From contig NW_026516206.1 in the NCBI RefSeq assembly GCF_025602895.1, positions 806,001 to 870,000 on the forward strand: DNA of 64,000 nucleotides. Reading direction: 5' to 3'. This document shows, piece by piece, positions 6,663 to 21,221 of the stretch. Every line of letters begins with the position of its first letter. The stretch's first letter is position 1. The position numbers were made by a program, and so were the translations under genes. Below the pieces are notes generated by a model, which saw only the letters and a list, made by a program, of their open reading frames with translations, was not told the origin of the DNA and searched no databases. Origin of the DNA: Polychytrium aggregatum (Eukaryota; Chytridiomycota; Chytridiomycetes; Polychytriales).

Positions 6663-7221
6663 ATGTATTTGCGAGAGCGGGCTTTGCAGCCGCTGCGATA
6701 GGCTGTAGGCTTCATCACAACATTCCATTTTGAAACGGGACACTCTGTGTTGAGCCAGGACTGTCGTTGCTTCCTGGGACCCGAATACACTCGCCTGTCA
6801 TGGCCAAGCACAGCACTCTCGCTTTCCGCACCGCTGCACTGCGATCGAGAATCTGATTCGGCCGCCAAGGCGTCATCATTCCTTCTTGGTGTCATTGTTG
6901 GTGTGGATGGTCGGCGCATGTGGTCGTGGTTGCGTCGGGTGGATTACATGTATAAATCTCGCACCTTCGTCCTCGGCTCTCGAAACACCAGAATCGTGCT
7001 CGCACATAAACCGCATATCCATAGCCCGTTGAGCAAGGCAAGCCGGGCCAGGTTCACGAGAGTATTCGATGGAGCGGGTGGGTTCTGCTCGATGTGGGCA
7101 ACCTCAGGATGTGCGGGAATCCATCACTATCCTTGTCATCAGCCGGGAGCGATGGAAACGCAGGAGCGGATGGCGAGAGACCTGTACGGAGACATGAAGT
7201 ATAGAATGCTCCCCCCAACCT
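6663..7221. other. Convergent intergenic region ALG1/SBDS
   Basis: About 560 bp between two convergent stop codons, holding 3' flanks and copy A of the short shared motif (6770-6801). The overlapping ORFs here show no recognisable family. Confidence 0.6.
6770..6801 (+). repeat. Dispersed 3'-flank motif, copy A
   Basis: Contains CTTCCTGGGACCCGAATACA, starting 108 bp after the ALG1 stop in the same orientation as ALG1. Related copies lie at 34132-34167 (+), 18955-18990 (-) and 51507-51539 (-). See findings for two readings: a 3'-end RNA/DNA element or a decayed coding scrap. Confidence 0.5.
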
Positions 7222-18440: not shown

Positions 18441-18943
18441 TCACACCGCAGAGGCAGGACGAGGATGTGCCTCCGGTCTCCGTCGCATAAGGCTCGGTGC
18501 CTTGGGCAGGGGGATCGTTGGATGCGCGACCCTGCACATTCCATTGGAAGGATCGTACAGTCGGTCCAGAATGAAACGGGACAGATACTTTCTGGCTTCA
18601 GGGGCCTGTAGCTTGCCGAACTTCCATCGGCCCCAGTGGACAGGCCATGCGATTGTTTCCCGTCCTGGTTGGCAATCTCTTGGTGGTGTATTCATTCGAC
18701 CCTCTGGATAGCTCCATGGTGTATCGATATCAAGATGCTCGACCTTCTCGAGTCGCTTGGCTTCCCGACAGTGTGAGCACACCTGGGATGTGTTGAACTC
18801 GTTCACCGAGCACACATGAATGAACTACTCGAAATACCGAGCGAACCTGAGTCCCCTGGGACTGGATGAATATCCCTCCCTTGCTTCCAGGAGGCATTTC
18901 CAAAGGCAATCACCACTTCGGTCTCCTCGGACATACTGAATAG
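18441..18943 (-). pseudogene. Fanzor (eukaryotic TnpB-like RNA-guided nuclease) C-terminal remnant
   Basis: Two motifs of the TnpB/Fanzor C-terminus lie in the right order and spacing but in different frames. First frame (18943-18803): SEETEVVIAFGNASWKQG, resembling the beta-strand plus fG(D/N)aSw segment before the zinc ribbon. Second frame (18824-18441): HVCSVNEFNTSQVC followed by SHC, matching the consensus vdEf.TSk.C..C with RuvC-III Glu and first zinc-knuckle cysteines. Further on, EARKYLSRF resembles the RP.YLsr tail. The first frame ends in TGA just after the motif region and the second has a TAG just before it, so the gene is shifted. The second cysteine pair and the WNRDvNAa motif are not intact; a degraded trace (ANQDG) may sit in a third frame. 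The N-terminal two thirds of a Fanzor were not found. It lies in the 3' flank of the cytochrome b5 reductase gene. Confidence 0.65.
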
Positions 18944-18954
18944 CTATGAATGCG

Positions 18955-18990
18955 ATGATATGGTGGGTGTATTCAGGTTCCAGAAAAAAC
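18955..18990 (-). repeat. Dispersed 3'-flank motif, copy B
   Basis: Minus-strand sequence TTTTTTCTGGAACCTGAATA followed by CACCC, about 200 bp after the cytochrome b5 reductase stop (19193) in the same orientation as that gene, and immediately upstream of the Fanzor remnant. Confidence 0.5.
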
Positions 18991-19192
18991 ACTGTCCTGG
19001 TTAAAAACGAGGTGTCCCTGTAAGAGCGTGTGCAGCCACATGGGCTGTGATGTGAGCGAATCGCAAGGGGCGGTGTTGTGTGGGAAGATGACGTGGTGCA
19101 ATTATGGCAGCTATCCAGAGCTCGTGCTGCATGGCAGGCAAGTGCCACATCACATGCCGGATCATGAGCTGCCATCAAGCTCCCCGGTGGAC

Positions 19193-20775
19193 CTAGAGCT
19201 TGTAAACCTGCTCGGCCGTGTATCCGAGCTTGGCAAGGATGCCTCCGAGCGGGCCCTGTTCGTCTTGGTCGACCGGCGTGCCCTTGGTACCCGAGACATG
19301 TCTCATCATGCTGGCAATCGAAGCGACAGGTCGGCAGGAGGCGCAATGGAATACAATTCACCGATTGATGATGAAATAGAGCGAGAGTTAACGATCTGGC
19401 AGTCACGCCGACGACTCGGCGCATGTGCAGCAACACAGCAACACTTGCACTTACCCTTCTGGGCCGCACACGAGGATCTGCAGGCGCTTGTCCGAGTCAG
19501 GGGAAGGCACCATTTGCTGGACCATCTTTTCGTTGATGTACCCCTTGCCTTGCTTCCACGACCATGTCGTGCCCGTCTCGACGGTGTGGTAGACCTTGAT
19601 CTGATCAGGGTACTTGTTGGTCAGGAATTCAAGCTCCGAGCGCAGCAAGATGTCGGCCTCCGTTCGGTTGGCATAGATTAGTGAAATCTGGGTGTTGTCG
19701 CTGGGGTCCTTGAGGATTTTCTTGATCAGTTGGTAACATGGCGTGACGCCTGTGCCGCCGGCAATCTGGGCGTCCAATTGTCCACAATGAAGGAGAGCTG
19801 TTAGCATCAGTGGTTGTCGCCCTCAACAAACCGAAAAGCCCTTGCTCAGCTGAACAAGAAGACGATATGGTTGCGAGCGAGTATGCTCTGCGCCAGCAAT
19901 ACCGCCGAGCAAGCGTGCTCCCAGACAACTGCTCGACCATCAATCTCTTAGAGTCCCGTTAGGTACACCGAGGATGTGCTTACCATGGCAATGTGATCAT
20001 AGTCACCGGGTTGGTACTTCCATGTCTCAAATGCACCGCAGATCTCAATCTTATCGCCAGGGACTGCGCTGTGGATGAACTGGCTCACGGCGCCGTCGGG
20101 ATACTTCTTGACAATCAGGTCAAAGTGGTCATAGTCCCACGAGATGGGGCTGTAGTGGCGCCCGATTTGGCATGTGTGATCCTTGACAATGACCGAGCAC
20201 GGCACCGGGATCTGCTGAACCATGGCCAGAGGCATGTTCATCTGGAACCGAAACAGCGACGTATCCGAGGTCAGGGGGATCACCTCGTTGAGCTGGAACT
20301 TGAGGAATCGTTTTGGATTCAGCGCGGGATCGCCCTGTGCATCCTCGTGAAGATAGAGGTAGTAGTAGACGTCGTAGCCAACCACGGCCATGATCGAGAG
20401 GCCGATGAAGGCAAACAGGAACACAGGCGTTCGGCGGGTTTCACCACCGTCGCTCTCCGGGATCTTGAGGGTGGTGGCATGTGGGCTACCGGCCGAGGTG
20501 CCGCCGCTGTGGGTGGTGTATCTGGATTGAGCCAAGGGCATGCGGGGGGCAGCGGGCGACATCATGCGCTGCACCAAACTCGGTGGCCGTTTGCATTGCC
20601 CGATCGATGATGCCCTGGTGAAGAGCGACCTCTGGATGGGACCGGAGATGCGGTTCGAGATGCGGCGGAACACCGGAGGCTGTCCGTGGCAGCTGCGGGC
20701 GACGCTGCGGGCGACAGACGCCGAGAACGCTGCGCTCAATGCGCTCTTGGGCCGGAGGATGCCGAGGGGTTGCAT
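19193..20775 (-). CDS. NADH-cytochrome b5 reductase family, membrane-anchored (MCR1-like)
   Basis: FAD/NADH oxidoreductase that passes electrons to cytochrome b5 or related acceptors. Exons: 20775-19984, 19765-19455 and 19310-19193, phases agree. The N-terminal about 120 residues are Ser/Arg/Ala-rich and low in acids, consistent with a mitochondrial presequence, followed by a hydrophobic anchor (FLFAFIGLSIMAVVGYDVYY). The flavin domain shows RFLKFQLNEVIPLTSDTSLF and GRHYSPIS (family R.YTP(I/V)S). The NADH domain shows IAGGTGVTPCYQLIKKIL, SLIYANRTEADILLR and CGPEG-MM (usually CGPPG). The C-terminus AKLGYTAEQVYKL is typical. Other Mets at 20847 and near 20558 are possible starts; 20775 was chosen because it begins the presequence-like region. 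Yeast Mcr1 is the best functional analogue; location is inferred. Confidence 0.88.
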
Positions 20776-21221
20776 GCTCGGCGAGTGCTCGGCGAGGCTG
20801 GATCGTGCGGCGAAGAGCAGCACACCACGGAAAATGAAACAGCACACCGAAAACGCACCTCCGGGTCACGGGCCGTCACGTGGCGTTGGCGTGTGTGTGT
20901 GTATTGGGACCAGACAACGACGAGCCACACCCTTGGCACCTCGGGATCGGCACCCGAGATTCTGGGGCGCACTGCAACGGACTGCGACGGAGGGCCATTG
21001 CTGCGTTCCAGCCTTGCCTCTGGCTGGGCTGCCCGACGCCGGGCAGAAGCACAGCAGAGCAGAGCAGCAGGCTGGGTTCCGATTGGATCGGGCAAGTTGA
21101 GCATCAGACACTGATCCCGCAGCGGCCGCGAGGAAAGGAGCTCGTTGCGGGACACAGCAGATGTTGCTGGTTTGCTGGTTACTGGGGGTGGGGTTCATCG
21201 AGGTGGTAGAGGGAGAGGTCG
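20776..21221. other. Intergenic: cytochrome b5 reductase upstream region and CYC8 3' flank
   Basis: 446 bp. Includes a GTGTGTGTGTGT-like stretch near 20889-20901. No gene supported. Confidence 0.5.

Follow-up and report, generated by a model that had tools for sequence, protein, structure and literature searches.

Fanzors, nucleases that cut DNA under RNA guidance, occur in several transposon superfamilies, and the literature examined does not make clear by what route they change from one superfamily to the next. Among the closest described systems are the Fanzor1-bearing Tc1/mariner elements SPu-1, PGv-1 and PUl-1, which according to the available portion of PMC3627910 have TA sites and inverted ends and, in some cases, a mariner-type transposase together with Fanzor; for SPu-1 a 633-aa protein and 17 full-length copies are given there. 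The same portion sets out a Fanzor motif, D-X(125,275)-[TS][TS]XX-C4 zinc finger-X(5,50)-RD, and the excerpts of PMC10711439 add a fingerprint composed of a DPG RuvC-I motif and an alternative glutamate six residues before the first CxxC. The other close system is ghost Spu-1 of Spizellomyces punctatus. In the excerpted text of PMC10432273, 134 ghost elements with a conserved region of ~550 nt stand beside 42 loci whose Fanzor genes are full or partial; the inverted ends of the ghosts differ from those of the Fz elements, being similar and not identical, and four RNAs from ghost right ends proved functional with SpuFz1 in human cells.

The locus described here lies in the window, a 64,000-nucleotide stretch of Polychytrium aggregatum DNA, and had originally been predicted to be a frameshifted Fanzor remnant. 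It is, with high probability, no solitary remnant of a Fanzor gene but a decayed copy of a short, hybrid and non-autonomous Tc1/mariner-type element belonging to an amplified family. Observed in this same genome are the homology of its members, their ends and copy number, and parent genes that are near-complete. With SPu-1, PGv-1 and PUl-1 the wider family has in common the TA sites, the inverted ends and, in some copies, a mariner-type transposase beside Fanzor. As in ghost Spu-1 (PMC10432273, in the part cited), the short elements have no whole Fanzor ORF, their ends outnumber the intact genes, and their inverted ends are similar, not identical, to those of the Fanzor elements. They differ from ghost Spu-1 in that they keep the C-terminal coding part of Fanzor and have a left end derived from a separate MITE. 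Taken alone, the element of the window is a decayed representative of a family that closely resembles the known ghost elements. One Fanzor family of this genome also lives in CACTA-ended elements, unlike SPu-1, PGv-1 and PUl-1 as far as the cited part of PMC3627910 goes.

The short elements: extent, ends and composition

The feature had been placed at 18441..18943, but the unit is 18558-19020 (Table 1) and 18441-18555 is flanking DNA. Twenty loci were fetched around the best matches, amounting to 13 independent loci by flank identity; similarity to the window ends at 18553-18557 in 18 of them (12 of the 13 independent loci) and, on the other side, at 19018 in 14 (9 of 13). The neighbouring gene, to the 3' side of which the element lies, encodes FAD_binding_6 and NAD_binding_1 domains. 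In a haplotype check of the assembly no empty site was found, the 971 bp on the element's 5' side being single-copy.

Table 1. Features of the element and its surroundings (window coordinates)
Feature	Position	Strand	Basis
Non-autonomous Tc1/mariner-ended element with Fanzor C-terminal region, 463 bp (probable)	18558..19020	-	similarity limits, aligned ends
TA, right target-site copy (sense orientation)	18556..18557	.	sequence
TA, left target-site copy (sense orientation)	19021..19022	.	sequence; left end is TACAGGGACACC
5' inverted end, 18 bp shorter than in siblings	19013..19020	-	authors' alignment reading; sibling end TACAGCGTTTCCAAAATGAAATGGGACA
3' inverted end CTGTCCCGTTTCATTCTGGACCGACTG	18558..18584	-	3 mismatches against the family's right-end pattern
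5' segment in common with mariner MITE (L072; L129:27-133)	18943..19018	-	blastn, 77.8% to L129, 81.8% to L072
Fanzor RuvC-II block SEETEVVIAFGNASWKQGR	18875..18931	-	tblastn with L029, 84% over 19 aa
Fanzor block with alternative Glu and first zinc knuckle (IHVCSVNEFNTSQVCSHC...DIDTP)	18717..18821	-	tblastx with L029, 91% over 35 codons; PF07282 E=0.0016 (below cut-off)
Site of ~115 bp missing relative to L014 (DNA coding the RuvC-III Asp in copies such as L009)	18683..18684	-	alignments
Last 75 nt to right end; place of the guide-RNA scaffold in S. punctatus elements (PMC10432273, excerpts)	18556..18630	-	putative, by position only; no covariation
Flavin oxidoreductase gene (FAD_binding_6, NAD_binding_1) beside the element	19451-20865	-	

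Searched against its own assembly (64.68 Mb, 418 contigs), window:18700-18943 gave at least 40 scored matches, itself included, a lower bound (658 first-look candidates) that takes in places inside longer Fanzor elements as well as haplotype copies; the other 39 are 73-95% identical. Since many contigs come as near-identical pairs (e.g. L009/L010, L012/L013, L021/L022), the copy counts include haplotype or assembly duplicates. Typical siblings are ~640 bp long; in the sense orientation their left end is TACAGCGTTTCCAAAATGAAATGGGACA and their right end CTGTCCCGTTTCTTTCTGGATAGACTGTA, which form imperfect 28-bp inverted repeats (TACAG...GGGACA) and appear as TACAG...CTGTA ends in the alignment. 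Read by eye, 9 of the 14 aligned rows, among them that of the window, have TA on either side; it is missing on the left in L026 and on the right in L018 and L023, while the right end is absent from L012 and the left end of L021 was not found. The short elements thus possess the TA target site and inverted ends of Tc1/mariner elements. With a tolerance of 3 mismatches, the genome has 420 places that match the right end and 269 that match the left, against 0 for the reversed control patterns. These numbers are not counts of short elements, because 8 of 20 sampled exact right ends sit within CACTA-type elements and some left ends belong to MITEs without Fanzor. Two further scraps lie in the window: a small second piece of Fanzor at 2157-2236 on the plus strand (HASRSMISVRQSIVATADQP), 84.8% identical to the short copy L014 over 79 bp, and a mariner MITE remnant of ~72% identity at 6723-6847.

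Each of three siblings tested (L014, L028 and L026) is matched by a mariner MITE over its first ~105 bp and by Fanzor elements from ~114 to the right end; both parts are present in the window copy. The MITE (L072) measures 273 bp and has one and the same end at its left and right. In the favoured reading the left ~100 bp of the short element stem from a mariner MITE, and everything after them is the 3' part of a Fanzor element, running from RuvC-II up to the mariner right end; the Fanzor tail was probably all that was left before the short element spread. Given its ends and the presence of Tc1/mariner (IS630-like) transposases in the genome, a transposase of this type acting in trans would have moved the window element to a TA site lying 3' of the flavin oxidoreductase gene, where it presumably decayed further. 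More tentatively, the right end may once have coded the scaffold of a guide RNA that continued into the flank and served a Fanzor protein made elsewhere.

Variable sites in the coding blocks were counted by codon position, giving 6/6/19 in the 7 rows whose Fanzor part is longer (among them the internally deleted L073 and L018) and 21/16/28 in 13 distinct short rows, L009/L010 and L016/L020 being the same loci. The block pattern was unmatched in the window copy, in L025 and in the short copy of L018, and these are absent from the count; L075 and L011 have indels that inflate the differences. The difference in spread between the two sets suggests that constraint is relaxed in the short copies and that they are not maintained as protein genes.

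A possible guide-RNA role, and the Fanzor identity of the window copy

The short elements might be maintained as working guide-RNA-only, or ghost, elements, the right-end RNA taking its guide from the flanking DNA, the Fanzor protein of intact copies cutting empty sites, and the elements being restored in this way. Ghost Spu-1, with its working right-end RNAs, is the published precedent, and the short elements resemble it in size, in their differing left end and in their conserved right end, although common descent from coding sequence could account for that conservation. A guide-RNA structure was sought in 21 aligned right ends chosen from 67 pattern matches, with MITE-left-end types, near duplicates, too-short matches and the odd rows L086 and L023:7809 left out; the consensus fold was weak and its covariation no better than that of shuffled alignments, and single right-end folds gave |z| below 1.7 in 5 of 5 cases. 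A target-adjacent motif was likewise rejected as a candidate. The conserved CA found before the left end in S. punctatus precedes the left TA in just 3 of 20 sampled left flanks (~17 independent), whereas A or T does so in 19 of 20, which may be a preference of the transposase; these flanks were picked by their MITE left ends and not by Fanzor content. The short elements therefore differ from ghost Spu-1 (PMC10432273, cited part) in that the CA is not fixed, and in that a guide RNA would here be read from position only. On this evidence a working ghost function appears rather unlikely, and a guide-RNA role is at most suggested by analogy.

A second explanation, that a full-length Fanzor gene was inserted at this site and decayed in place to its C-terminal end, would be permitted by the motif blocks and their order alone. 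It is very improbable, since siblings in different flanks (the 13 loci left after removal of near-identical flanks) are built alike, short and with the 5' end of the MITE joined on just ahead of KETEVVIAFG, and a junction common to the siblings already contradicts decay in place.

The two motif blocks predicted on the minus strand in different frames were both read, VVIAFGNASWKQGR in one frame and VNEFNTSQVCSHCREAKRLEKVEHLDIDTP in another, 37 codons beyond it. They do belong to the C-terminal part only, and the frame break proved, in an alignment with the siblings, to be one base missing in GGGAAGGGAT; in the sibling short copy L009 both blocks lie in a single frame of 151 aa. A 42-nt gap before IHVCS is common to several siblings and leaves the frame intact. 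The second zinc knuckle is altered, as had been proposed, but to call it degraded falls short of the facts: its place is taken by a different sequence, WSYPEGRMN, of a type that recurs both in siblings (L012, for example) and in two long copies, L027 and L030, and the ~115 bp that come next in L014 (3885-3999) are absent from the window at 18683/18684. Because RuvC-I, the second knuckle and RuvC-III are gone, the window copy should be incapable of encoding an active nuclease.

Derivation from Fanzor, the core of the original prediction, is upheld by a tblastn match of the complete relative L029 to the window (E = 9.4e-22), by homology to frames that contain the full Fanzor motif and, for the family, by a DNA match of the sibling short copy L014 (E = 6.9e-106), values far beyond what chance would give. 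In the profile check the 127-aa open stretch at 18441-18824 matched PF07282 (TnpB/Cas12f zinc-ribbon) at a sub-threshold E=0.0016, and an NCBIfam search of the window fragment yielded no match; Rfam gave 0 matches in the window at gathering scores. The Pfam and NCBIfam results would leave room for a fragment of an unrelated zinc-finger gene or a chance match, an idea of negligible probability that is refuted by the homology chain, namely 73-95% DNA identity to 39 other places and homology to frames with the full Fanzor motif.

Near-complete Fanzor genes in the same genome

Relatives that might be intact had been thought worth finding, and near-complete copies are present in this genome. A search with the 825-aa frame of L027 gave at least 55 scored long matches (79-100% identity), and in 40 of these the matched part contains no stop; both figures were counted from a table, include haplotype duplicates and stem from 1450 first-look candidates. 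The copy number is thus higher than the 17 full-length SPu-1 copies reported in the cited part of PMC3627910. The complete frames, at ~880-900 aa (L031, 895 aa; L029, 901 aa; C63, 884 aa), are also longer than the SPu-1 protein. Their layout is IDPGVG, 197 residues to TS, C-x2-C, 22 residues, C-x2-C, 5 residues and RD (QD in L029), the spacing of 197 being taken from the Asp of DPG; a script that started from an earlier Asp gave 207. With Q allowed for R before the last D, the regular expression for the full Fanzor motif matched three of four frames tested (L031, L029 and C63) and not L027, and the window copy does not contain the full motif.

The sequence IGIDPGVG is present in L029, L030, L031, L027 and C63 and belongs to the part lost from the window copy. 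The segment E-FNTSQV-CSHC, with the alternative glutamate six residues before the first CxxC, is found in the relatives and in the window, the first Cys being Tyr in L030. L027 and L030 have other sequence at the place of the second knuckle, and their frames end early. PF07282 was matched over its cut-off by L029 (1.2e-8) and by the L018 frame (1.9e-9) and below it by L027; it was absent from the C63 protein as searched, which was shortened and cut before the zinc ribbon. The guided_TnpB profile reached 20.3 bits, far below its cut-off of 100. By their DPG motif, alternative glutamate, C4 motif and PF07282 matches, the long relatives can be assigned to the Fanzor family.

A PDB sequence search returned 0 hits for full-length L027 and 0 for a profile of five copies, and no Fanzor1 chain was matched. 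The C-terminal part of L029 had its best match in Cas12m (23vw, E=0.0022), with weaker ones to LaTranC and the TnpB-like L79 among unrelated chains. In one scan of viral contigs 212 stretches fitted a pattern, none of which was confirmed by tblastn.

A second Fanzor-like family starts at L129:1384 (L129:1384-1959, C22), behind a similar IS630-like transposase frame, and its first 192 aa have at least 150 scored places among 356 candidates. This stretch has no Pfam match of its own; it appears to be Fanzor from its position, its resemblance and the PF07282 matches further along what seem to be the same long frames (C44, C70 and C134). PF07282 itself gave at least 150 scored matches in the genome, every one over the cut-off, of 663 candidates. 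Those on C49, C124, C279, C35 and other contigs reach up to 70.5 bits in frames of differing length and possibly represent more Fanzor or TnpB-like families.

Mariner and CACTA carriers of one Fanzor family

The mariner carrier is represented by C63:30300-35200, in which the order is left end, a 325-aa IS630/Tc1 frame, Fanzor and right end. The transposase scores 120.1 bits with NF033545 (cut-off 100) and matches PF13358 (DDE_3) at E=7.1e-24. The mariner parent ends were located on the left in 3 of 3 cases and on the right in 6 of 7, C2 being the exception. DDE_3 lies directly 5' of at least 7 of the 55 Fanzor places, 150 of 335 DDE_3 candidates having been scored.

CACTA (EnSpm/CMC) transposons have CACTA...TAGTG ends and produce 3-bp target duplications, and non-autonomous copies need no Transposase_21 of their own. 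Other Fanzor copies in this genome have such ends, CACTATCAATTTTTTCCGG and TTTTTTCATAGTG, which occur at 90 and 122 places with up to 3 mismatches. Twenty CACTA...TAGTG Fanzor copies, picked by their ends, were read on both sides: an exact 3-bp duplication is present in 15, or at 11 of 15 independent loci once same-flank duplicates (five pairs) are removed, the misses being C32p, C346 (= C10), C2 and C32m. Nine of these copies measure 1.55-1.61 kb and eleven 3.35-3.77 kb. In ends and duplications they are like other CACTA transposons, from which they differ in their cargo, a Fanzor gene with a mariner right end inside. The genome contains 29 matches to PF02992 (Transposase_21), all of them more than 10 kb away from the listed Fanzor places.

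All five CACTA copies compared with C63 (L029, L030, L031, L018 and L073) have in common with it 43-53 bp at the end of the transposase frame, Fanzor sequence, and the mariner right end down to the final base. There the similarity stops, and ~300 bp more lead to the CACTA end. Because the compared copies keep the mariner right end together with a scrap of the transposase, the Fanzor gene has apparently moved between transposon superfamilies. We incline, by a little, to the following course of events: a mariner-Fanzor element inserted into a CACTA element, its left end and almost the whole of its transposase were lost, and what is left, with the mariner right end still inside, is now propagated between CACTA ends; the direction, from mariner to CACTA, is presumed.

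No paper joining Fanzor with EnSpm, CACTA or CMC was among the literature matches listed, and a CACTA-type host may already be in print. The terms EnSpm and CACTA are absent from the portions of PMC3627910, PMC10432273 and PMC10711439 available, the last of which describes its own list of associated transposases as incomplete. In the excerpts of PMC12636532 a Fanzor element and EnSpm elements occur in one alga as separate repeats, and in PMC12730594 TnpB occurs in a reference only.

What appear to be the stages lie side by side in this genome: mariner elements with transposase, CACTA composites with a scrap of it, and short hybrids. They may offer a natural case in which the end of the guide RNA has shifted relative to the end of the transposon. 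Should the switch have taken place and the guide RNA still end at the buried mariner end, the CACTA copies would make one fixed guide; should it not end there, the RNA boundary would have shifted to the CACTA end. Either outcome would show how Fanzors pass between kinds of transposon.

Two CACTA-ended copies lie in opposite directions at C32:55249-56803 and 73189-74746. The flank CAT to the left of one recurs to the right of the other, as if the right ends had been swapped by inversion, although the remaining pair, TCA/TCT, is not exact. A CACTA-ended deletion derivative of ~280 bp, without Fanzor, is present in L074 (C404:128050-128370).
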